Virus record (IMG/VR): IMGVR_UViG_3300005527_000040
Coordinates: 62,001 to 126,000 of that record
Length of the DNA stretch: 64,000 nt
Direction: 5' to 3' (one strand)
Source of the DNA: a virus
The position numbers were made by a program, and so were the translations under genes. Numbering within the stretch: the stretch's first letter is position 1; the number at the start of each line of letters is the position of its first letter. Positions 3,893 through 63,431 of this stretch are shown one piece after another. The notes under the pieces are model-generated. The model saw nothing but the letters and a program-made list of their open reading frames with translations. It was not told the origin of the DNA and made no database searches.

Positions 3893-4711
3893 CTATTCCT
3901 TCTTAAGCACAGGGCCAATGATTCGCTCTACGCGCGTTTTTAGGTCATAGGCTCGGTGCGGCGGGATGCCCATCTTCTTTGCGATCTGCTGCGGAGTAAG
4001 CTGAGAGTCGCCCGCGGCGGGAAGATGAAACTCCGCGTACTGCCGTTCTTCCGGAGACATTTTGCTCTTCATAAGGAGAAATGCGTCCCGAGGAGACGCT
4101 ACGTCTAGCTCCTCAGTAAGGTCTGTCCCCATGTGCGTATGCACTTCCGGAGAAAATCCCGTCTTTAGTTCCTTGATCCTCTTGATAGACATTCCTGGCA
4201 GCTTTTGCTGAAGCTCCAGAGCCGTGGGCTCTCGCCCGTAAAGATCAACAAACTCGTTTCGAGCGTTAGAAAACTCGCTGTATCGTCCGATGTTTTCTTT
4301 GCTCATGTAAAGTGCGTTTCTGTTCTGGGCTACAAAGTCAGAAACGCGCTGAAAGTTGTTGTTGATGTGTGTGCTCAGCTGTGTCTTCTTTGCCGGATCG
4401 TAAGTCTGAATGGCTCTTACGGTTGCGTTGCGAAGCTCGTTCTTCATCGAGTCATAGGGGATCGCTCCGCCTAAGCTCTTCATGCGCTTGTTCGCCTCCC
4501 TAGAGATCATTGGATCAAGAGAAGTGAGAAGCGGCTCTAGGTGCTCAGGGGTCCTCCCACCTTCGTGCCACGTACGCCACTGGTCTAGTTCCTGCCCTCG
4601 CCTAGACCGCAGCTCCGCATAGCGCTCCTTGGCTTGACGCTGCCGAGCCTCGGTCATGGCGCCCACGGCGGACGCTGACTCCTTGATGAACTCGTCAATC
4701 GGCTGATTCAC
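3893..4711 (-). CDS. Sigma-70-family-like transcription factor
   Basis: 272 aa. Residues ~60-130 read like sigma region 2: a helix with many charged residues, then ATVRAIQTYDPAKKTQLSTH followed by an aromatic and Asn-rich helix, recalling the 'A..FDP.+G.+FSTYA' core of sigma factors. Residues 154-185 (DLYGREPTALELQQKL) match the region 3 'PT..ELA..L' pattern. The last ~55 residues (MSPEER, then LTPQQIAKKMGIPPHRAYD) form a region-4-type helix-turn-helix. The start is GTG with GGAGG five bases upstream, and CCTATCAG lies directly before it. Families of this type direct RNA polymerase to phage promoters; here that is inferred. It could instead be a structural protein with a chance match, since it sits among virion genes. 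Confidence 0.6.
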   Translation of the reverse strand: MNQPIDEFIKESASAVGAMTEARQRQAKERYAELRSRRGQELDQWRTWHEGGRTPEHLEPLLTSLDPMISREANKRMKSLGGAIPYDSMKNELRNATVRAIQTYDPAKKTQLSTHINNNFQRVSDFVAQNRNALYMSKENIGRYSEFSNARNEFVDLYGREPTALELQQKLPGMSIKRIKELKTGFSPEVHTHMGTDLTEELDVASPRDAFLLMKSKMSPEERQYAEFHLPAAGDSQLTPQQIAKKMGIPPHRAYDLKTRVERIIGPVLKKE

Positions 4712-4726
4712 AGGGTCCTCCGCAAG

Positions 4727-4734
4727 CTGATAGG
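4727..4734 (-). promoter_or_regulatory. CCTATCAG element before the sigma-like gene
   Basis: On the minus strand the octamer ends 15 nt before the GTG of the sigma-like gene and is followed by CTTGC-GGAGG. It belongs to the set of about 17 near-identical elements placed just upstream of genes and may make the sigma gene self-activating. Confidence 0.6.
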
Positions 4735-5124
4735 CTAGAGCCCGGTGTTCATTGGACCAACGCCAGACAGCCCTTGGGGTTGGGTAGCCGGTGTGTTCTT
4801 GCGTAAGGCGTTCTTTGGAGAAATATCGGGGTTGATTACCCCATCTACAGGCTTTACCGACTTTACGCCCGGAGCCTGAAGCGTCGGCTTGCCCACGCGA
4901 GGAGCAGGCATGGTGCCGGGAACGCCTTTTTGAGACACAAACTTGCCCACGCTTTGAGAGGGGCTTGCTGGCATCTTAAGAGACATCGCGATCTTCGCAA
5001 AGAAGGGGGCTAGGATGTCCTCCGCAATCTTGTGCTTCCTTTTCTTGTGACGCGCGTTGACCCGCTTTCCGCTCTCGTAAAGGTACTTGACAGTCGTTGG
5101 CGTCATGATCCTTTCAACGCCCAT
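4735..5124 (-). CDS. Hypothetical basic protein
   Basis: 129 aa, basic N-terminal half (NARHKKRKHK around residues 23-32) and a Pro/Gly/Lys-rich, probably disordered C-terminus. The first ATG at 5122-5124 has AGGAG upstream; an internal Met at codon 7 (5106) also has an acceptable site. It overlaps the end of the 163-aa gene by 11 nt. Possibly a nucleic-acid-binding virion component, an inference from charge only. Confidence 0.6.
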   Translation of the reverse strand: MGVERIMTPTTVKYLYESGKRVNARHKKRKHKIAEDILAPFFAKIAMSLKMPASPSQSVGKFVSQKGVPGTMPAPRVGKPTLQAPGVKSVKPVDGVINPDISPKNALRKNTPATQPQGLSGVGPMNTGL

Positions 5125-9348: not shown

Positions 9349-10578
9349 TCAGAGCCCCAGGTTGGCTACGTTTTGTGCTTGAGCAACAGCCTCTGGGCTT
9401 AAAGACCCACCAGCCTGCCGGTACCCAAACGCCCCAAAGGTTCGTCGTGCTGCAAAAGCTCCTGCGCCTAGCAGCATCGCCGAGACGCTACGACCAGTAG
9501 CATCTACGCCAAACTTCTTTAGTACCTGCTGAGCCTTTTCCTCAAGCGCCTCTGGAGAGTTCAACCTAAGCTGCTCCTGAACTCTGGCCGTTTCGGCGTC
9601 ATCAACCAGCAGCGGCGAAGGCTCTCGAACCACATACTCGTCAAAGTTCTCGTAATACGGCACGCCTACCGGAGGAGCCGAAAACTGCGCTTGGTTTGCA
9701 AGTGTGTTGGCCCTGGACCAAATGCCCCGCGGGTTAGTAAGCGGATCGGGCGGATTAAAGAACGTGTCCCGGTACTGCTGAACTGTCCGTTGAATAGTCA
9801 CGGAGGCATCCAACGCAAACCGCCGCATCTGCGCTAGGTTTGCGTTTAGGCCCGCGCTTCCCGGAGAGTTTCTACTTGCTGCCGCAGCAGTTGCTGCTGC
9901 TCCTTCTGGCGTATCCGGGGCAATCCCGCCTTCAGGAATAGGGGAAGCCCCAACTTCTTCTTCCGTAAACGTCATGTCCGCGTTACGCCAGTTAGTGATT
10001 CCAGGGCGGCTCAGGTCCGCGTACTGGCACACGTACATCTGGAACTGAAACTGGACGTGATACGGAGAGTCTGAAGCGTAGTTGACGCTTGATTGCAGAA
10101 TGTAGCCCTCTACGACGAGATCATCAAAGTACAAGTAAAGACGAGCGTTTTGCTCCACAAGACGTGTACCTCGAAGGTGCCTCTCGTAGTTCTCCAAAAA
10201 CTCGTTTTTCCAGTTGAAGTCTTTGGTGTTGAGCAGCACCCCGGCAAACGTCATGATCCGGGGACGCTCTCCAAAGAAGAAGATGTAGTCCTCGCCAAAG
10301 GTTTCTACGATCTGCTGCTTCTCTACCCGCTGCTCAGAAACTTGCTGAAGAATGAAGTTTGAGTACCTGGTGCTGTACCCGACCCCGTCTTCGCTGTCAG
10401 CGCTGGAGCTGTCAAAGATAGGGATCTCCTCGCCAGTAGCCTTGATGACCCGGATGACCGCGTACGTGTCTTCCTTGATCTCAATTCCGCGAAGAGGTCG
10501 GCGGACGTTCTCGTAGGTCTGTGTCTCTCGGCCTACGTCGGAGAACGCGTCGGTAGCCACCGTAATGTAGACAGCCAT
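9349..10578 (-). CDS. Baseplate/tail protein, partner of the hub-like protein
   Basis: 409 aa, coded 4 nt upstream of the hub-like gene. The N-terminal ~200 residues are compact and beta-rich with GEDYIFFFGERPRIMTFAGV and LNTKDFNWKNEFLENY, followed by YLYFDDLVVEGYI; I associate this block with baseplate or tail-tube-initiator proteins of myophages and long-tailed phages. The C-terminal half is Ala/Pro-rich and ends in a Gly/Ala helix region. ATG start; the divergent regulator gene begins 25 nt away, so promoters for both are squeezed into this gap. Confidence 0.6.
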   Translation of the reverse strand: MAVYITVATDAFSDVGRETQTYENVRRPLRGIEIKEDTYAVIRVIKATGEEIPIFDSSSADSEDGVGYSTRYSNFILQQVSEQRVEKQQIVETFGEDYIFFFGERPRIMTFAGVLLNTKDFNWKNEFLENYERHLRGTRLVEQNARLYLYFDDLVVEGYILQSSVNYASDSPYHVQFQFQMYVCQYADLSRPGITNWRNADMTFTEEEVGASPIPEGGIAPDTPEGAAATAAAASRNSPGSAGLNANLAQMRRFALDASVTIQRTVQQYRDTFFNPPDPLTNPRGIWSRANTLANQAQFSAPPVGVPYYENFDEYVVREPSPLLVDDAETARVQEQLRLNSPEALEEKAQQVLKKFGVDATGRSVSAMLLGAGAFAARRTFGAFGYRQAGGSLSPEAVAQAQNVANLGL

Positions 10579-10586
10579 GCGTGTAG

Positions 10587-10594
10587 CCTATCAG
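10587..10594 (+). promoter_or_regulatory. CCTATCAG element before the SANT-like regulator
   Basis: Plus-strand octamer ending 9 nt before the ATG at 10604, with GGCGGA between. This spacing chooses 10604 over the earlier ATG at 10577, which would lie upstream of the element. Confidence 0.55.
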
Positions 10595-10603
10595 CAGGCG
10601 GAC

Positions 10604-11182
10604 ATGACTACCATGACTAACTCAGAAAAGCCCGCAAGGCATAACTGCCCCTGGACCGAGGAAGAAGACCACCTACTTCACTTTTACTGGGGAGCTAGAG
10701 CCGTACCGTGGATCGCAAACAAGCTCAAACGGTCGGCCTGGTCTGTCACGCGTCGCGCCTTAGAGTTAGATCTTGGGCCGTTTGAGCGCGGAACTCTTAG
10801 CATGAAGCAGTTTTGCGAAAGAAGCGGGTTCCTACAGCATCAAGTGCTGCGCGTAGCTAGAAGCCTGAACATGATCATTCGCAGAGCGCAGCCCGGAAGC
10901 CCCCTAGCGCCAAGGCCAAAGCGGAGATACGCGATCGACGATGATCAGCAAGAGGCGCTTCTTGAGGGGCTTCTCAAAGTTACAGAAAAATCATCCCACG
11001 TATACAGGGACAAACCCGGCGACGCACGATCCACAAAAGGAAAGTGGGGCGTAGGCAAGAAGCCACCAGCGTGTCTCCGATGCGCCACGAACGAGCGTCC
11101 CCACTGTAGCTTAGGCTTGTGCTCCAGCTGCTATAACCGGCGGTACAAGAGTCCTAAACCGTCAAGTTCGTCCGGATCATAA
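10604..11182 (+). CDS. DNA-binding regulator: Myb/SANT-like N-terminus and C-terminal zinc ribbon
   Basis: 192 aa from the ATG at 10604. Residues ~13-55 (CPWTEEEDHLLHFYWG, then WIANKLKRSAWSVTRRALEL) form a three-helix domain of the Myb/SANT or GcrA type, with W-TEEED at the start and S-W-SV in the recognition helix. A second helix-turn-helix-like region follows, with a basic linker. The C-terminus has a zinc-ribbon spacing: CLRCATNERPHCSLGLCSSCY. It is one of the few rightward genes, converges on a small minus gene (29-nt overlap), and has its own CCTATCAG element. Likely a transcription regulator; the target is unknown. Confidence 0.75.
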   Translation: MTTMTNSEKPARHNCPWTEEEDHLLHFYWGARAVPWIANKLKRSAWSVTRRALELDLGPFERGTLSMKQFCERSGFLQHQVLRVARSLNMIIRRAQPGSPLAPRPKRRYAIDDDQQEALLEGLLKVTEKSSHVYRDKPGDARSTKGKWGVGKKPPACLRCATNERPHCSLGLCSSCYNRRYKSPKPSSSSGS

Positions 11183-15243: not shown

Positions 15244-15251
15244 CCTATTAG
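15244..15251 (+). promoter_or_regulatory. CCTATTAG variant element before the 95-aa gene
   Basis: Plus-strand variant of the recurrent octamer, ending 16 nt before the ATG at 15268 and followed by GAAGGAG. Same geometry as the CCTATCAG sites. Confidence 0.5.
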
Positions 15252-28791: not shown

Positions 28792-28799
28792 CCTATCAG
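28792..28799 (+). promoter_or_regulatory. CCTATCAG element before the methyltransferase
   Basis: Plus-strand octamer followed by TAAATGA-GGAGG and the ATG at 28816 (16 nt after the octamer). Same spacing as the other SD-containing units. Confidence 0.62.
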
Positions 28800-30637: not shown

Positions 30638-30645
30638 CTGATAGG
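30638..30645 (-). promoter_or_regulatory. CCTATCAG element of the 29.5-30.6 kb unit
   Basis: Leftward octamer followed by TGAATGAA-GGAGG; 24 nt lie between it and the ATG at 30613. It probably starts the three-gene unit ended by the terminator at 29515-29546. Confidence 0.6.
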
Positions 30646-33244: not shown

Positions 33245-33252
33245 CTGATAGG
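33245..33252 (-). promoter_or_regulatory. CCTATCAG element before the AcrVA2-like gene
   Basis: Leftward octamer followed by CCTTT-GGAGG and the ATG 17 nt on. It lies directly after a terminator, as expected for the start of a new unit, and rules out the longer frame beginning at 33263. Confidence 0.65.
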
Positions 33253-33828: not shown

Positions 33829-34494
33829 TCAGAAAAGTTCTGGAAAAGGGCGCTCCGGGTCGTCCTCTATGTCAACGGGGGCAACAATCACCTTCCAGTT
33901 ATCTCCTACGAACTGGACTACTTCTGCATCCCCGTCCCCGCTTACATGCGGCCCCCGGTAGATGAACACGTCACAGGTACCGCTGGAGACCCCGAGCATC
34001 TTTAGAACGATGTGGATCCGGCGCCGGTCAACTCTTACACCAGATATGCGCCCAGTGTGGGCGCCAATCGCCTTCGGATCGTTGTCTCCTTGAGACGTAT
34101 ATCTTGGAAACATACACAGCTTGTGTCCCTTGCACAGGGGGCAGTCAGCAGTGTCAACGCGGCACCACTGCTCAATGTGGTCTATTGAAACATCCTCTTT
34201 GAACTCGATGTAATCAGTCCCAAACAACTCTACGATCCGGCCCACACCGGTCTGCACGTCTTCCTGCCAGTCTATTTCTTCTGGGTCAGGGAGCCCGTTC
34301 TCCAGCAGTAGGAGAACGAGCACAGAGCCGTCGGTAATACACAGATACGGATCGTCGCCGATGTAGAAGATGTGTGGGCACCGGGCGTACGGGGAAGCCC
34401 CGTCGTGCCCTACACACAGCCTCAACAGGCTACGGACTGACTTGGGATCTATGCCAGGAATGCTGGGCACTTCGATTAGAGCCATGTTCACCAC
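33829..34494 (-). CDS. Hypothetical protein downstream of the ligase
   Basis: 221 aa. GTG at 34492-34494 overlaps the ligase stop; an ATG three codons later (34485) is equally possible. Contains CPLCKGHKLC (a Cys cluster in the middle) and several strand pairs (GDDPYLCITDGSVLVLLLLE). The acidic C-terminus ends DDPERPFPELF. Not recognised. Confidence 0.65.
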   Translation of the reverse strand: MVNMALIEVPSIPGIDPKSVRSLLRLCVGHDGASPYARCPHIFYIGDDPYLCITDGSVLVLLLLENGLPDPEEIDWQEDVQTGVGRIVELFGTDYIEFKEDVSIDHIEQWCRVDTADCPLCKGHKLCMFPRYTSQGDNDPKAIGAHTGRISGVRVDRRRIHIVLKMLGVSSGTCDVFIYRGPHVSGDGDAEVVQFVGDNWKVIVAPVDIEDDPERPFPELF

Positions 34495-35600
34495 CGCTTG
34501 TTCTTGTGAAACACCTTGACCCTCGGAAACCGAGGGATTCCATCTGGCGTAAGGTGGAAGTATTCCACAGTCGCCTCTTTGCCCAGGTAGCTCGGGACAT
34601 CAGCCAATAGATCGCGCAGGTACTCCCAGCTTCCCGTAATGTTTGCCCGAAAGGTTCTTCCGTCAGGCAGAGACAGTACGGCGTACCCGGCCATTCCAGA
34701 CCGATTTCCTTCACCTTCATAGATCCCAATCACCGGGAACTCGGAGTCCATGCACTCTTTTCTCTTGAGCAGGAGCTTGCTCCTCTTCTGCTCATACGGA
34801 CCTTCGAGTCGGATCATGGTGCCCTCAAAGCCATCGGAGATCCAACACTCATGGATCTCATCCAGCTCTTGCAGATCTTTCGGCGCTAACGTGGGAACCA
34901 TTACAACGCCGGAAACGCCCACCGCTGCGGCGCGGCGACCCATAACGCGGGCTTTGGTATCTCCTTCGCCGGGGGCGTCGTACACCCAGTACTCGATGAT
35001 GCGGGAGTCCTCTAGGTCTTGGGCAGTCGGCTTCTGCTTCTTTACCTTGGATACCAGCGCTGGAAAGTTTGCGCTGAAGTCATGGTTGTAAAGCTCACCG
35101 TCTAATACGAGTGACGGGTCCTGCTCGAACAACGGCAGAAGAGCCTTGTGAATATGCGGAACCGATACGATCGGGTTGCCAAGCCGAGACCACAGCCCTC
35201 GGATGTTGGCTATGCAACGGACACCGTCCAGCTTTGGCTGGACGTATACTTGTCGTGTCCCTGAAGCCAGTGCGTTGGCTACGTCCTTGGCGTAGTCCTC
35301 GTACACCTTGGCAAGCATCGGGCTGAAACGATCAGACTCTCTAGCTCCGCTCAAAGTCTCTTGGTAGCCAGACTTTAGCTTGAGCGTGTAGTTTGAGGCG
35401 ATCTCTAGTTCTGCCTGCTGCTCAGGCGTGGTCTCATTGGACCGGCCTACGTTTTTGGGTCGAGCAACCGTCCAGTTTGACGATACGATCTGACCACCGT
35501 CTTGTCCGCTATGGGTGCGGTACGACGATCCTTCTCGTTCTTGCCACCAAACTTGAATAGCGTTTGTAGCTGTCTGTTTGTAGAGCTTCTTGTGGTGCAT
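34488..35600 (-). CDS. ATP-dependent DNA ligase with WGR-like N-terminus
   Basis: 370 aa from the ATG at 35598-35600. Ligase motifs in order: KLDGVR (residues 123-128, Lys123 carries AMP), LDGELY (166-171), EGTMIRL (motif IV) and KLLLKRK (motif V). Residues ~12-80 (WWQEREGSSYRTHSGQDGG, then RPKNVGRSNETT and KSGYQ) form a WGR-like DNA-binding region common in phage ligases. It seals nicks in phage DNA. CCTATCAG ends 6 nt before the ATG and there is no ribosome-binding site, so the mRNA may be leaderless. Confidence 0.92.
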   Translation of the reverse strand: MHHKKLYKQTATNAIQVWWQEREGSSYRTHSGQDGGQIVSSNWTVARPKNVGRSNETTPEQQAELEIASNYTLKLKSGYQETLSGARESDRFSPMLAKVYEDYAKDVANALASGTRQVYVQPKLDGVRCIANIRGLWSRLGNPIVSVPHIHKALLPLFEQDPSLVLDGELYNHDFSANFPALVSKVKKQKPTAQDLEDSRIIEYWVYDAPGEGDTKARVMGRRAAAVGVSGVVMVPTLAPKDLQELDEIHECWISDGFEGTMIRLEGPYEQKRSKLLLKRKECMDSEFPVIGIYEGEGNRSGMAGYAVLSLPDGRTFRANITGSWEYLRDLLADVPSYLGKEATVEYFHLTPDGIPRFPRVKVFHKNKRW

Positions 35601-35606
35601 CAATAA

Positions 35607-35614
35607 CTGATAGG
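35607..35614 (-). promoter_or_regulatory. CCTATCAG element before the ligase gene
   Basis: Leftward; the TATCAG part ends exactly 6 nt before the ATG, the same distance as in the units at 39217 and 63438. Confidence 0.62.
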
Positions 35615-36855: not shown

Positions 36856-36863
36856 CTTATAGG
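36856..36863 (-). promoter_or_regulatory. CCTATAAG element before the 127-aa gene
   Basis: Leftward octamer of the recurrent set, A form (TATAAG). Like the other TATAAG copies with longer leaders, it is followed by a stem-loop. Confidence 0.62.
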
Positions 36864-38721: not shown

Positions 38722-38729
38722 CTGATAGG
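38722..38729 (-). promoter_or_regulatory. CCTATCAG element of the RNase HII unit
   Basis: Leftward octamer followed by GATTT-GGAGG and the ATG 13 nt on. It lies between a strong terminator and the first gene of the unit. Confidence 0.68.
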
Positions 38730-39223: not shown

Positions 39224-39231
39224 CTGATAGG
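39224..39231 (-). promoter_or_regulatory. CCTATCAG element before the 148-aa SLOG-like gene
   Basis: Leftward; TATCAG ends exactly 6 nt before the ATG at 39217, with no ribosome-binding site between. Confidence 0.62.
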
Positions 39232-40993: not shown

Positions 40994-41001
40994 CTGATAG
41001 G
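40994..41001 (-). promoter_or_regulatory. CCTATCAG element before the leader hairpin
   Basis: Leftward octamer 5 nt before the 18-bp hairpin, in the gap after the thymidylate synthase gene. The distance to the ATG is about 80 nt, the longest of the set. Confidence 0.6.
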
Positions 41002-41016
41002 CGAAAACTAAGATTT

Positions 41017-41898
41017 TCAGCCGATTCTGTAGATGCTTTCTCCCGGCATCATCTTTCGGTACTGGAACCACGGCACCGCAAAGTTGCCGATGCACACAGG
41101 CAGATGCCTACCCCGCTCTTCGTCCCAGAGGTGATAAGCCACCCTGTTGATCTCCTCTTGTGTAGCTACGCGCGCCTGGTGCTCAAAGGGGCTCCAATGC
41201 CCACTAGCCTTCAGCGCATCATGTCGCGCAACGTACTCCGTTAACGACTTCTCTACGCGCTGCCGCTCGTAGCTAACGGCCGCGCATCGCGCGACGCTAA
41301 TAGCTACGATGCGAATGTCGGGGTCATCGTGGTGGCCGTAGCCCATTTCGGAGTGCTCAACGTACGGGGCGTGCCACTCCCCTACGTTTAGCTCTTTAGG
41401 TACGCTTGCATCCATGGCGTCCTTCATTGCTTGTGCTGTCCTCTGGATCTCAGGGGCAGCATCCGGATGAAGACGCAGCGCGAAGAAGTTGTCCCACTCG
41501 GTCGCGGTAACGACTACCGTGTGCCAAACGTACGGCTCTAGGACTCGGTTAGCTTGCTGCTTGTGAACTTCAACACTCGCAAGGCTTTCGGCAAACTCAG
41601 CCGCCATATTTGACGCGCCGATCCAGTATGCGCTGGCGTTGCGTGCGTCGCTCTCTGCAAGAAGAACGTCCGCCTGCATTCCAGATTTGTTCTTGGTGAA
41701 CTCTGGAATAAACGGGTTATCTTGTACCTGCTGGACCCGGGTCTTTACCGGGATCGCACGGCTGCTTGCTGAGTTCCTGCTAAACACTCTGTGGGTGTTG
41801 AACTCAGCGAGAATGTAACGAGGGAAGGTGACTTCCAAAGTAGTAAGGCGGACTCCCTGTGCGAGGGAATCCGCCACAACAACCGCGCTATAGCTCAC
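41017..41898 (-). CDS. thyX: FAD-dependent thymidylate synthase
   Basis: 293 aa, GTG start overlapping the upstream stop (GTGA, 41895-41898). The ThyX motif appears as THRVFSRNSASSRAIP (residues 35-50), the phage form of RHR-x7-S with the first Arg replaced by Thr; His36, Arg37, Ser40 and Arg47 are present. GHWSPFEHQARV and RYE/SYERQR-type segments follow. It makes dTMP from dUMP with reduced flavin, raising the thymidylate supply. It forms a set with the dCTP deaminase upstream (dCTP to dUTP, the precursor of dUMP) and a helical protein between them. Confidence 0.93.
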   Translation of the reverse strand: MSYSAVVVADSLAQGVRLTTLEVTFPRYILAEFNTHRVFSRNSASSRAIPVKTRVQQVQDNPFIPEFTKNKSGMQADVLLAESDARNASAYWIGASNMAAEFAESLASVEVHKQQANRVLEPYVWHTVVVTATEWDNFFALRLHPDAAPEIQRTAQAMKDAMDASVPKELNVGEWHAPYVEHSEMGYGHHDDPDIRIVAISVARCAAVSYERQRVEKSLTEYVARHDALKASGHWSPFEHQARVATQEEINRVAYHLWDEERGRHLPVCIGNFAVPWFQYRKMMPGESIYRIG

Positions 41899-43941: not shown

Positions 43942-43949
43942 CTGATAGG
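43942..43949 (-). promoter_or_regulatory. CCTATCAG element before the 191-aa gene
   Basis: Leftward octamer in a short gap after the 146-aa gene, followed by a stem-loop and AAGGAGA. Confidence 0.6.
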
Positions 43950-53449: not shown

Positions 53450-53457
53450 CCTATCAG
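53450..53457 (+). promoter_or_regulatory. CCTATCAG element (rightward)
   Basis: Followed by TGTGT-GGAGG and the ATG at 53472, 14 nt on. Right half of the divergent pair. Confidence 0.66.
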
Positions 53458-57370: not shown

Positions 57371-57378
57371 CCTATAAG
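57371..57378 (+). promoter_or_regulatory. CCTATAAG element, cassette 1
   Basis: Rightward octamer, A form, 8 nt before a leader stem-loop. Followed on the same strand by TAGTTGAAGC, similar to the second cassette (CGTTTGAAGC). Confidence 0.62.
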
Positions 57379-57855: not shown

Positions 57856-57863
57856 CCTATAAG
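57856..57863 (+). promoter_or_regulatory. CCTATAAG element, cassette 2
   Basis: Rightward octamer, followed by CGTTTGAAGC and a small stem-loop before the ribosome-binding site of the 116-aa gene. Confidence 0.62.
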
Positions 57864-58316: not shown

Positions 58317-58324
58317 CCTATAAG
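58317..58324 (+). promoter_or_regulatory. CCTATAAG element, cassette 3
   Basis: Rightward octamer 9 nt after the previous terminator's T run, before a perfect leader stem-loop. Confidence 0.64.
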
Positions 58325-58922: not shown

Positions 58923-61900
58923 TTAGAATGCCCGACCAGCGCCTTGGTACGCGGGTGCAGCAAGGGGGCGGGAGGTCTGAGACTCTTCCTGCGCCATCTG
59001 CGTCTGGTTTAGCATATGGCCTGCTCCTACCGCCAGCCCGCCAAGGCCCAACGCGGCAGCTCCACCGGCAATCGGGATGGCATTACGGCGCAGGAACCCA
59101 GGCTGTTTGGGTGCTTCCGGAGCGGCTGGCTGGCCCGCGGGTGCTACCGGTGTAGCCGCTCCGGTAGCTGCTACGGGCGTAGCGGCGGGAGATGCAGCGG
59201 CTGGGGCAGGAGGAGGAGGCGGCGCCACTCCCGCTGACTGCTGCGGTGGTGGCGGCGGGGGCGGAGGTGGGGGCGGCGCAGCACGCTGCGGAGGTGGTGG
59301 GGGTGGAGGCACTGGGCGCGCTGCCGCTGCGGGCGGTGGCGGTGGAGCAACAACGCGCCCCGTCTGGTTCTCAAGAGAGAAGCCAGGGGGCAGGGCAGGC
59401 CCGGGGGTTACGGGCAGCTGAGCCCGCGCGGGCGCGGAACTCGCGCCGGAGGCACGAACTAGCTCAGACAACTCTGGAACGCGACCAGCCTCTTGCGTAA
59501 CCGCTTTTGACTCTAGGTTAGCCAGCAGCGACTCAACCTGTGGGGACATTTGTCCCGGATCAGGCTTGGGTAGTGACGACGGCGCTGGTCGAGGTGCTAC
59601 TTGGGTTGCCTCGTTCCCAATAGCCTCTCGACGCATGCGATCTTGGGAGGCTCGTAGAGCTTCTGCCCTTCGAGTTTCCTTTGCCGCCGCGTCAGCTTGA
59701 CCCTTTGCTAGAACCTCTGCTTGCGAAGGTTCAGCGGGGCGCGCAGCAGGCGTGGCGGGGGGCTTAGCTGCGGGCTTAGCGGCAGGCGCAGCAGCGGGCG
59801 TAGCAGCGGGCGTAGTGGCTGGAGCAGTCGCAGGCGAAGTCTTTGGCGCAGGCGGTGCTTTTTCCCAGCCTAGCGCTTGGCGAGCCTTGCGGACCTCAGC
59901 GGCTTCTGCCGCTCCGCGCCCAGAGACTTCCTTCTTAACTTCGTCGACAAGCTTCTTGTCTTCCGCCCTGGCTGCGGCTCGCGCTGCCTCAGCCTTATCC
60001 AGCTTGGCTTTGTACTCCGGGCTGCCCGTTACGGGGTTTTGCTCACGCTGTTTTGACCTTTGGGCGGCCTCAGACTCCCGCTGTGTCTTACGCGCTGCCG
60101 CGGCCTGTTCTTCCCGCTCAATGGCAGCACGCTCACGCGCCTGACGCTCAGCGGCCCTGGTTCCCGGCTTTACGTCTGAGCGCCCAGCAAACTGTTGGTC
60201 TAGCTGGTCCTTACGCTGCTGAATGCGCGCCTGATCCTTTGCTGTCGCAGCCTCAAGCTTGTTGCGGTCTGCTGCGTCGGCCATTTCCCGCTTAAGTGTA
60301 TCCCGCGCGGTGTCCTGAGCCTTTAGGCGAGCTACCTCTTTAGAGGCTGCCTCCGGACCCCGGACCTTTGCTCCCGCAAGCCCTTCTCCGCTCCTAAGCG
60401 CCTGTACCTCGGCGCCTAGTTGCTTAGCTTTTCCTGAAACAAAGTTTCGACCCTGACGGCCAAAGTGAATAGCATCGTCGGCAAACTCCCGCCCTACGTC
60501 TTTCAGGGCTCCCAGCGCCTGCCGGGCAATACCTTTGGCGATCTTTTCCTGCTCCTCATTGGTCATGTACTCCCAGTCGGGGTACATGATCTGAGCAACC
60601 TTGACCGCCTGCCGCATGGCCAAGGCAGCGTTTGCCTTCTTTTCCTTTGACTTGTACTTCATGTAGTCGTGGACGGCGTCAATCGCCTCCGACGCACGGT
60701 CAATCTTGCTCTCAACCCAAGGCTCCGCGTTGTCCCGAACGGATACAGCACCAGAGAGCCGCTTAGACTGATCCGCAAGCCGCTTGAGGTTGCTGACCAT
60801 CATGTAGCCGGGCGGGTCATTGTGCTCGGAAAGCACGGACTTTCTGGAGGCTGTCTTTGGGGCTTCCGCCGGAACATAGTCTTCCGGCTTTTTACCGCCG
60901 GGAAGAAGCCGGTCGATCCCGCGAGATACGGGCTTGATAACGCCCGGAGCAACAAGGGCTAGTCCGCCGATCTCCTGAAGATGGTAATCCTTCATCTTCT
61001 TGCCAGCGCCGTGGATTGCGGCTCCCATGGCCTTAATCCTTGGATCGCTGGCGTGCTCCATCTTTTCGCCAGCAAACTGAGCGATAGACGGGGCCGCTAA
61101 AGCAGCAATACCAACGTCGTCTAGCCGATCAGCAATAAACTCGGCGCGCTCGCTGTCCTTAGCCGCCTTGATGTTATCGCCTTGGATCGAGGCTGCAAAA
61201 TCGGTAACCGGCGGGATGTCGTCCCCGACGCCATTCCGCTCACCGTTACGCTTTGCAGGCTGAACCAGCGAGGCAATCTTCAAAGAACCAAAATCGATGT
61301 CTTGACCGCTGCTGATGCGCGCAAGGTTCAGCTCAATGAAGGCGTCGAGTTGTGTTCCACCGACTTTGGCGGCCTGCCCCGAGCCGTATGCCGAGTTCTG
61401 CTTAGTCATGTACATTCCGGCTCCAACGCCGGCAAGACCAACGGTTGGGGTTACCCACCACGGCAGCTTAAACCCACCGCCCTCAGCTGCCGCAGCGGCT
61501 GGTGCGCCTGCGGGCGCGGCCGCTGCTGGAGCTGCGCCTGCGGCAGCGGCTGGGGGAGGCGGAGGTACCGCTGCGCCCGGAACCGGGGGAGGAGCAGCAG
61601 CCGGCACTCGGCTGCCTCCTTCGTACTTGACGTGGCCTCCGGACATAAGCCGGTCGCCTGCCCGGGTGGCTTTTACGTCTTGAGTGATGTTAGACAGCTG
61701 CTGTGGCGTCAGGCTTGTGCCCTGTAGGCCGGCCTTGAACGACGCTGCGCTGCGGGCAGATCCTGCGGCTAGTGCGTCACCAGCAGCATGGGCTACGTTC
61801 TTAGTGCCCTGAACTGCCCGGCCAGCAAGGTTAGCCGTGCCTTGAACAGCCTGCTGACCTGCGCGCACTACCCGTCCGAACATGTTTGCTGCAACGTTGG

Positions 61901-63356
61901 CAGCCTTTTCCTGCTCTTCAGGCGACATCCGGTCCCAGTCTGGGAACACCGCACGCGCCAGCTTTACGGCGTCACCGGCGTAGCGTGGAGTAACCGGCGT
62001 GTACGCAAGGCTGGCCTTCTTGTCCCGGTTTGCCAGGTACAAGCCCGTTCCGCCTGCTGCGAGTAAGCCTCCTCCTACTACAAGCGGCGCATAACCGCCG
62101 GATCCGGTTGCCGGGGCAGCAGCTGGAGTTGCGGCCGGGGCAGCCGCTGGTACCGCCGCTGCACCTTCGTTTTGAACGGCTTGCCGAACGACGTTTTCCC
62201 GCTGCGTCCTGCTGGCCTCTGCCGCTGCGTTAAGATTCTGCTCAAACGCCTTTTCAGCTGCACGCGCCTGATTCTTAGCCTCTGCATCGATAACTGCGGC
62301 AGCTTGGGGAAAGCGACCGCTAGGGTCTGTTGCTGAGGGTCGAAGCGGGGGTGTGTAGCCCGTAGTAGGCGCAGGTTGAACCGGTGTCGCGGCAGGAGAC
62401 ACGCCCCGGGTTGGCGCGGGGATTGGTGCATGCCCTTGTCCGGCTAGATCTCGCCCACGAGCACGGTAGCCCTGCTGAATCGCGTCGTCTAGGTCCTTGC
62501 CACCACGAAGCCCCCCAACCACGTGCTCTATCGGGGCGCCGCGGCGGGTGCTCTGCGACAGCTCTCCTACAGCTTTGCGAGCGCCGGATACCCCACCCAC
62601 TACGCGGCTGTTTGCGGCTTCGCGTGCCTGCTGGGCAATTGCGTTTGCAATGTCTGGCGTAACTTCGTGGCCAGCGGTGGCTAGGCGCTTGGTTAGCCCA
62701 GCGGCAACCCGCTTCTCAATATCGGCCGCAGAAATGGCCAGCTTGGTTACTTCTGCTTTCTTTGATCGCATTGTAGGCTTGCCCTTCTCGGCCGGAGCAC
62801 GCTCAGGGAGGTTCTTCATGTTGGGAGTCTCGTCTGCCCATTCCTTCGCCTTCTCTTTTGAGAAGCCAGGAATATGGCCGCCGAATGCGGCGCGCTGCTG
62901 ACGCTTGGACGTGAAGGGCATCTTATTCTCCGAAATCTTTTGGCCGTGGTTCTTCTTATCGAGAACCTTACCCTTAAACTCTTCAACGCCCATCTCCCTC
63001 ATCGAGCCGAAGAAGCGGGGGTCATTATAGTGAGCTAGGTAAGCCGCCTTAGCCGCTTTGGCGTCCTTAAATCCGAGCATCACCTTCTGCTCGTCAAACC
63101 GCCTGAAGTCTGGCTTCTTCATCTGATCGACGATGAACACGGAGCTGGAGTCGGTATCCGGGCCGACGTAGACATCGACGTGGTCGCCGTCAGTGCCCTC
63201 TGTGCGGCGGAAGTAGCCGTAGTCGTACTTCATCACCGTGGTGCCAGATTCTCCGCTGTGGGGATCCTTCCAATGGCGCGACGACCCTCGCGGGTTTTCG
63301 ATAGAAATATCGAACCCGTAGAGCTTTACCCTCTTTTTTATCGGATGTGCGGCCAT
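58923..63356 (-). CDS. Large polyvalent protein with pyrophosphatase-like N-terminus
   Basis: 1,477 aa. Residues 1-135 contain DGDHVDVYVGP (56-66): Asp56, Asp58 and Asp61 keep the DGDxxD metal-ligand spacing of family I inorganic pyrophosphatase, followed by VFIVDQMKKPDFRRFDEQKV, the 'InPase' domain of phage polyvalent proteins. Then a MPFTSKRQQRAAFGGHIPGF motif (146-165), long Ala/Pro/Gln-rich linkers, three Gly-rich hydrophobic segments (near residues 435, 640 and 1440), a repeated PDW...EEQEK unit (near 475 and 930), and a Pro-run region near 1350. Large proteins of this design are packed in the virion or injected. A virion or ejection role is likely; enzymatic activity is untested. Confidence 0.76.
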   Translation of the reverse strand: MAAHPIKKRVKLYGFDISIENPRGSSRHWKDPHSGESGTTVMKYDYGYFRRTEGTDGDHVDVYVGPDTDSSSVFIVDQMKKPDFRRFDEQKVMLGFKDAKAAKAAYLAHYNDPRFFGSMREMGVEEFKGKVLDKKNHGQKISENKMPFTSKRQQRAAFGGHIPGFSKEKAKEWADETPNMKNLPERAPAEKGKPTMRSKKAEVTKLAISAADIEKRVAAGLTKRLATAGHEVTPDIANAIAQQAREAANSRVVGGVSGARKAVGELSQSTRRGAPIEHVVGGLRGGKDLDDAIQQGYRARGRDLAGQGHAPIPAPTRGVSPAATPVQPAPTTGYTPPLRPSATDPSGRFPQAAAVIDAEAKNQARAAEKAFEQNLNAAAEASRTQRENVVRQAVQNEGAAAVPAAAPAATPAAAPATGSGGYAPLVVGGGLLAAGGTGLYLANRDKKASLAYTPVTPRYAGDAVKLARAVFPDWDRMSPEEQEKAANVAANMFGRVVRAGQQAVQGTANLAGRAVQGTKNVAHAAGDALAAGSARSAASFKAGLQGTSLTPQQLSNITQDVKATRAGDRLMSGGHVKYEGGSRVPAAAPPPVPGAAVPPPPPAAAAGAAPAAAAPAGAPAAAAAEGGGFKLPWWVTPTVGLAGVGAGMYMTKQNSAYGSGQAAKVGGTQLDAFIELNLARISSGQDIDFGSLKIASLVQPAKRNGERNGVGDDIPPVTDFAASIQGDNIKAAKDSERAEFIADRLDDVGIAALAAPSIAQFAGEKMEHASDPRIKAMGAAIHGAGKKMKDYHLQEIGGLALVAPGVIKPVSRGIDRLLPGGKKPEDYVPAEAPKTASRKSVLSEHNDPPGYMMVSNLKRLADQSKRLSGAVSVRDNAEPWVESKIDRASEAIDAVHDYMKYKSKEKKANAALAMRQAVKVAQIMYPDWEYMTNEEQEKIAKGIARQALGALKDVGREFADDAIHFGRQGRNFVSGKAKQLGAEVQALRSGEGLAGAKVRGPEAASKEVARLKAQDTARDTLKREMADAADRNKLEAATAKDQARIQQRKDQLDQQFAGRSDVKPGTRAAERQARERAAIEREEQAAAARKTQRESEAAQRSKQREQNPVTGSPEYKAKLDKAEAARAAARAEDKKLVDEVKKEVSGRGAAEAAEVRKARQALGWEKAPPAPKTSPATAPATTPAATPAAAPAAKPAAKPPATPAARPAEPSQAEVLAKGQADAAAKETRRAEALRASQDRMRREAIGNEATQVAPRPAPSSLPKPDPGQMSPQVESLLANLESKAVTQEAGRVPELSELVRASGASSAPARAQLPVTPGPALPPGFSLENQTGRVVAPPPPPAAAARPVPPPPPPPQRAAPPPPPPPPPPPQQSAGVAPPPPPAPAAASPAATPVAATGAATPVAPAGQPAAPEAPKQPGFLRRNAIPIAGGAAALGLGGLAVGAGHMLNQTQMAQEESQTSRPLAAPAYQGAGRAF

Positions 63357-63423: not shown

Positions 63424-63431
63424 CCTATAAG
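63424..63431 (+). promoter_or_regulatory. CCTATAAG element at the right edge
   Basis: TATAAG ends exactly 6 nt before the ATG of the edge gene, the leaderless spacing also seen at 35600 and 39217. Confidence 0.63.

Follow-up and report, generated by a model that had tools for sequence, protein, structure and literature searches.

The virus studied here encodes both a sigma-70 family protein and an RNA polymerase (RNAP) of the cellular type. Our analysis argues, with a probability that we put at roughly 0.75, for a joint role in which the sigma factor would act as specificity subunit of the phage's own fused polymerase, the octamer CCTATMAG would be read as promoter, a promoter of this kind ahead of the sigma gene would provide feedback, and the proteins would be packaged in the virion. 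The window, that is, the whole stretch of 64,000 nucleotides that was analysed, spans bases 62001-126000 of a 160,725-bp virus record, which may itself be incomplete; its genes were called with a simple script from codon usage and Shine-Dalgarno signals. The sigma locus comprises the following features, the limits of the protein regions being inferred from alignment and model.

3893-4711, minus strand: gene for the sigma-70 family protein, 272 aa, GTG start (open reading frame, family profile, predicted fold)
Residues ~55-134 of the protein: sigma region 2
Residues ~136-185: sigma region 3
Residues ~207-271: C-terminal helix-turn-helix (HTH), region-4-like
4716-4721, minus strand: Shine-Dalgarno-like GGAGGA of the sigma gene, read from the sequence
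4727-4734, minus strand: CCTATCAG, 15 nt from the GTG, immediately past the stop of the tail gene that lies upstream
4735-5124, minus strand: tail-module reading frame upstream of the sigma gene, its stop codon followed by the octamer, as in the relatives read

How firmly does this protein belong among the sigma factors? Taken as a single query, it has no significant match in Pfam, PHROGs or the PDB, and its exact peptides have none among viral contigs, so that a family profile was required. Tblastn against 50,697 phage records connects it to gp10 of Salmonella phage Arash (2e-12; 31% identity over 144 aa) and to three Vibrio phages (7e-10). A Synechococcus phage sigma (22% identity, E 0.06) was set aside as a separate, T4-like case without this RNAP. 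With a three-sequence alignment as query, 32 viral loci were recovered from 146 candidate stretches, representing 21 distinct proteins; a collection of genomes added one further relative, on a short MAG contig, and the family is phage-borne as far as searched. Pfam Sigma70_r3 is matched by 23 of the 24 aligned members, the exception being the window protein, and the best PDB match of the family profile is SigA (E 7.2e-13, over positions 33-222), with RpoS, SigF and FliA chains also matched and sigma-factor names on all 60 of the matches listed. The AlphaFold model of the window protein (pLDDT 79.4, pTM 0.46, weak linker at residues 187-204) has 110 PDB matches at E <= 0.001, of which the best 50 are sigma or transcription-initiation entries; its region 2 fits domain 2 of SigA over 92 residues at 2.0 Å, and the model fits sigma-28 over 78 residues at 1.9 Å. 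These domain-level matches are good, the rmsd of about 20 Å in full-length matches arising because the domain arrangement is not predicted in the model.

Homology to regions 2, 3 and 4, by way of the family, thus coincides with a sigma2 core and a C-terminal HTH in the predicted fold, two elements whose absence the original prediction had named as speaking against a sigma factor. Profile and model now stand behind what had been only a pattern match, and identify the 272-residue protein as a member of the sigma-70 family, with core binding and initiation as its predicted functions.

The polymerase lies outside the window, on the same record.

Record C1:1089-7292, minus strand: fused beta-beta' RNAP, a single chain of 2067 aa (domain and PDB matches)

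Its Pfam domains include Rpb2_6 (2.5e-57) and Rpb1_2 (3e-20), along with Rpb1 domains 3 and 5, and the chain has near full-length similarity both to a bacterial beta subunit (8gzg, 6.9e-71) and to T. aquaticus beta' (2gho, 4.2e-85). It carries the catalytic NGDIDGD and an alignable clamp-helix stretch, and so combines, in the manner of the multimeric-RNAP Caudovirales (mReC), a DxDGD signature with beta and beta' parts alignable to cellular homologs. In cells, the clamp helices of beta' are the docking part for sigma region 2. An alpha-like RNA_pol_L domain was not detected at E <= 10 (the control was found in 13 of 14 genomes), and neither Pfam regions 2 and 4 nor a profile of gp196, the second sigma of Arash, revealed a second sigma in the window record.

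Among 24 records searched, RNAP is present in 13, namely in all 12 sigma-family records of at least 138 kb and in one of 104 kb, and absent from ten smaller fragments and from cyanophage S-H34; the chains in these 13 relatives number two or three. The fused form was found on 16 viral contigs, of which one is an identical fragment and the other 15 share 54-65% identity. Six of the 15 fused-RNAP records, all six at least 149 kb, also contain the sigma gene (33-50% identity), and none was found in the nine records of at most 74 kb. In one relative (G014:C1:39768-44804), an insertion of about 640 aa interrupts beta' immediately behind the catalytic DFDGD and, judged by this position, looks like an intein.

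In its proposed tests, the original prediction had assumed host RNA polymerase as the partner of the sigma protein. This assumption is not supported in view of the fused polymerase encoded by the record, of the polymerases of its relatives, and of the virions of Arash, in which mass spectrometry detected beta (gp206, 3516 spectra), beta' (gp216, 1210 spectra) and the sigma factor gp10 (467 spectra, 100% coverage, among 116 virion proteins), according to the available text of that study (PMC10585845). As the phage encodes its own polymerase, the likely partner is the phage enzyme rather than that of the host. A sigma factor that binds the host core and redirects it to the octamers, leaving the phage polymerase to another role or another specificity factor, would follow the precedent described for phiEco32 and 7-11 in the accessible part of PMC4331800, and the clamp region common to cellular and phage beta' also speaks for it. 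We nevertheless consider such an arrangement unlikely: RNAP and sigma co-occur in every near-full family record, both are reported from the Arash virions, and gp196, the only other sigma, is absent from the window's branch.

The gp196-type protein (W01:C1:120656-121693 and relatives), which has a canonical region 2, is present in 13 of 17 records searched, is absent from the window genome, and is accompanied by a TAAAATA motif on the strand of the structural genes. No such protein was found at E <= 0.1 in the fused branch (window, G026, G027, G028 and G034), and [CGT]TAAAATA is missing from four fused-branch genomes and occurs four times, twice intergenic, in the window genome; CCTATMAG and a window-type sigma are present in all five. 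Since this CC branch has neither gp196 nor the TAAAATA class, the window-type sigma is the only detected reader there. The idea that gp196 is a region-2-only sigma fitting a single-box late promoter was dropped, as the alignment shows a region-4-like end. Ahead of the gp196 gene, no consistent early or late motif was found as a sign of a cascade; by eye, host-like boxes (TTGACA/TTGACT - 17 nt - TAAAAT/TACACT) are seen upstream of it in G012 and G002. In two genomes (G002:C1:8605-9608 and G001:C1:16851-17860), a break near residue 180 splits this gene into two frames.

The octamer itself had been described as about 17 identical elements. The number holds for the window, and the identity only in part, as 11 copies are CCTATCAG, five are CCTATAAG and one is CCTATTAG. 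The copy 15 nt ahead of the sigma GTG is present as originally described; the others are located as follows.

10587-10594, plus strand: CCTATCAG
15244-15251, plus strand: CCTATTAG
28792-28799, plus strand: CCTATCAG
30638-30645, minus strand: CCTATCAG
33245-33252, minus strand: CCTATCAG, just past a terminator-like hairpin (by eye)
35607-35614, minus strand: CCTATCAG, ahead of a DNA ligase gene
36856-36863, minus strand: CCTATAAG
38722-38729, minus strand: CCTATCAG, just past a terminator-like hairpin
39224-39231, minus strand: CCTATCAG
40994-41001, minus strand: CCTATCAG
43942-43949, minus strand: CCTATCAG
53450-53457, plus strand: CCTATCAG
57371-57378, plus strand: CCTATAAG
57856-57863, plus strand: CCTATAAG
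58317-58324, plus strand: CCTATAAG
63424-63431, plus strand: CCTATAAG

The 11 copies of CCTATCAG in the window compare with an expectation of 1.40 (100 shuffles: sd 1.31, maximum 5). By the script's gene calls all 17 octamers are intergenic, and 16 face a co-directional gene; across the whole record, of which 9.5% is intergenic, 26 of 27 CCTATHAG sites are intergenic and 24 of the 27 face the next gene. Among 1680 letter permutations, CCTATCAG ranks first for intergenic sense sites near starts, with 12 such sites among 16 occurrences overall (permutation mean 4.4 occurrences), and ranks 2 and 3 are shifted copies of it. The distance from octamer to start codon is nearly fixed in many genes, and the flanks in the window record are conserved, with A at -18 in 20 of 26 sites and T/G at +12/+13 from the first C. 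If TATMAG is taken as a -10 hexamer, transcription would begin at +13 or +14, 6-8 nt after the hexamer, and so just before or within the Shine-Dalgarno sequence, which would give very short leaders; for the sigma gene, the octamer position predicts a start at about 4720-4721. A second motif ahead of the structural genes of the window genome was sought and not found, and these genes mostly lack the octamer.

Several further observations concern the surroundings of these sites. The octamer-rich region holds genes for an ATP-dependent DNA ligase (34488-35603, minus strand) and a ThyX-type thymidylate synthase (41017-41898, minus strand). A lone plus-strand reading frame (10577-11182) that borders the structural block of the minus strand has an octamer at its start; its product is basic with a Cys-rich end and has no Pfam match. 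The gene at 58923-63356 (minus strand) codes for a 1477-aa protein with an inorganic pyrophosphatase-like domain (PF18823) at its N-terminus. Outside the window, at record C1:34167-34222 (window -27833 to -27778), two back-to-back CCTATMAG sites about 40 nt apart flank the palindromic TTTTTAGCTAAAAA.

Is the element a property of the family? When upstream octamers were counted de novo, genome by genome, CCTATMAG, GGTATAAG or GTTATAAG proved enriched upstream of genes in 17 of 19 family genomes, the window included. In the branches with a split RNAP, GGTATAAG (overlapping TGGTATAA) or GTTATAAG (overlapping TGTTATAA) is enriched in 12 of 14 relatives, and in 11 of them the family word is the top upstream octamer or overlaps it; in G015 it ranks under TAAAATAT and CCTTCGGG, and in G014 and G016, both partial records with a diverged sigma, the de novo search found no family element. 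The top upstream octamer of the fused branch is CCTATCAG or CCTATAAG, both in the window genome and in all four further genomes, and CCTATMAG occurs in 15 of 15 fused-RNAP records, with 17 sites against one for the reversed control in G026. The same procedure applied to a T4-like cyanophage as control yielded other motifs, ATACTATA and CTAAATAA, with CCTATMAG intergenic in 3 of 11 occurrences.

The anatomy of the element is promoter-like, clearly so in the branches with a GG or GT element. In these split branches, a TCAAWWA box lies 16-18 bp from TATAAG, corresponding to a -35 box at sigma-70 spacing; across 278 intergenic sites, T[CT]AA was counted at offsets -21 (77 sites), -20 (36) and -22 (18), against a mean of 6.4 per offset, and a T-purine step is found at the expected start position. 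The window's branch has a weak, A-rich -35 signal, 55 of its 96 sites having A at -18. In 14 relatives, 269 of 279 intergenic G[GT]TATAAG sites point away from the strand that carries sigma and the structural genes, and 134 of 174 TAAAATA sites share that strand, with a gene baseline of 866 on the same and 1641 on the opposite strand; the Fisher value for this split, 6e-65, is overstated because the genomes are related. This pattern reads as an early/middle class and a late class of sequence elements, respectively, and TAAAATA presumably resembles the late promoters of T4 and cyanophages. CCTATCAG and CCTATAAG are not clearly split by strand (31 same and 24 opposite for C; 12 and 19 for A).

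The octamer might be read by something other than sigma, serving as a repressor or activator site, as an RNA-level signal before the Shine-Dalgarno sequence, or as a target of another promoter factor. An RNA-level signal would likewise show a nearly fixed distance to the start codon; however, the -35 box at 16-18 bp and the constantly spaced T-purine initiator of the sister branches, the octamers placed after terminator hairpins, and the co-variation of the element with sigma region 2.4 described below leave such a reader with little probability. That host sigma-70 holoenzyme uses the elements as weak extended -10 promoters is the least credible reading, for although TATAAG is one base from TATAAT, the enriched words have a final G in place of the expected T-7, a base that sigma-70 flips together with one other according to the accessible text of a review, CCTATAAT and CCTATAAA occur once each in the window record against 10 copies of CCTATAAG, TTGACA-N16-18-TATAAT is intergenic in none of nine genomes scanned, and the dinucleotide ahead of TATMAG varies with the class of the phage sigma.

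This last correspondence connects the element with the phage sigma. The class of region 2.4 matches the two bases before TATMAG in every case: CC in 5 of 5, GG in 10 of 10 and GT in 2 of 2, counts that are not independent, as the sequences are related and the three sigma classes are three branches. The CC class has NNFxR[IV][TS]DFVAxNRN-like sequences (G027 deviates slightly), the GG class RxNYxxQN preceded by a basic residue, and the GT class NHIAQASR.NYTYQN. A change from Arg to Asp where G becomes C would be chemically sensible, as read from three related branches.

The site ahead of the sigma gene is conserved as well. In the window and in 6 of 6 branch relatives with a found sigma, CCTATCAG lies ahead of sigma or of the small operon that contains it, directly in G028 and G034 and with a small gene in between in G026 and G027; in these four it lies 0-4 nt after the stop codon of the upstream gene, as in the window. 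G029 and G030 have the site at offsets equal to those of G026 and G027 and are probably their close kin, so that the seven sites amount to some five independent cases. For the six distinct sequences of the Arash group, GGGTATAAG is found about 305 nt upstream of sigma, before the preceding small gene. Within 700 nt upstream of 24 distinct sigma genes, a family-type site is present in the window and in the six of the Arash group, 14 have none, and three have a loose match that was counted as chance. Autoregulation as a trait of the whole family was therefore rejected, most sigma genes outside the window's branch and the Arash group being without a site. For the window's branch alone, where the octamer ahead of sigma is conserved by sequence, a predicted sigma promoter is well supported, and it may provide feedback. 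That sigma and octamer belong together, as originally proposed, is strongly supported at the sequence level by the enrichment in 17 of 19 genomes, the co-variation with region 2.4, the -35 box at sigma-70 spacing in the split branches and this conserved site.

In the mechanism that we favour, the sigma protein would confer promoter specificity on a core consisting of the single 2067-aa beta-beta' chain. The holoenzyme would recognise CCTATMAG as an extended -10 element (CC plus TATMAG), helped by a weak contact to the A-rich -35 region, and would start transcription about 6-8 nt past the G of the octamer. From its own CCTATMAG promoter, sigma would raise its own level in a positive feedback. 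By analogy with Arash, the virion probably carries the polymerase together with sigma and injects them, after which they would read the first genes. Several observations weigh against this mechanism: the weak -35 signal in the window's branch, the structural genes that mostly lack the octamer although late transcription would have to be served, the diverged sigma without an element in the partial records G014 and G016, the sigma genes of other branches that have no site upstream, the undetected alpha subunit, which bears on how the core would assemble, and the carry-over that the Arash authors allow. More tentatively, and at somewhat less than even odds, we suggest the complete picture of a virion-carried, injected holoenzyme of just two polypeptides, the fused beta-beta' and a bona fide sigma, that reads CCTATMAG, including the site of sigma itself, and in which region 2.4 and the promoter bases have co-evolved.

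How does this system compare with known ones? Arash has a sigma, gp10, homologous to that of the window and encoded at a corresponding place in the tail module, its own beta and beta' homologs (gp206/gp216) and an element of the same kind (GGTATAAG); it differs in a polymerase split in two chains, a second sigma, a second motif (TAAAATA) and an element that starts with GG instead of CC. The sigma factors of phiEco32 and 7-11 are of a different type and act on host RNAP. These phages share with the window phage the combination of a phage sigma and a short conserved promoter motif, which in their case has a TGATGT core, and the accessible part of PMC4331800 does not mention a phage beta-beta'. 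The mReC phages likewise have beta and beta' readily alignable to cellular ones, but the filter used for them required NADxDGD, whereas the window enzyme has NGDIDGD in one chain; the words sigma and promoter are both absent from the available text (PMC7481178). phiKZ and AR9 also encode a multisubunit RNAP without alpha, which has a virion form for early genes, but with split core chains and no sequence-recognisable sigma as far as the sources available describe them (PMC7598289, PMC13282480), whereas the window phage combines a fused core with a recognisable sigma-70 protein. For Arash, the virion proteins listed include replication enzymes, and the authors suggest either early transcription or carry-over; gp196 is absent from the proteome table, and the word promoter from the main text (PMC10585845).

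In the accessible parts of reviews, RNAP-encoding jumbo phages are described as lacking sigma and sigma-encoding ones as lacking RNAP (PMC7598289, PMC7824862, PMC13282480). The coexistence of the two is already on record, since the Arash annotation lists both genes; the open-access literature searched yielded no account of the sigma-promoter code and its co-variation, of the conserved promoter ahead of sigma, or of a fused core paired with a sigma. The window lineage has both polymerase and sigma, plus a promoter code that varies by branch in step with sigma. If our reading is true, it would provide a minimal, perhaps two-chain, RNA polymerase system of the cellular type that can be made and tested, and the family would form a natural series in which joint changes of sigma region 2.4 and the promoter bases could be studied.
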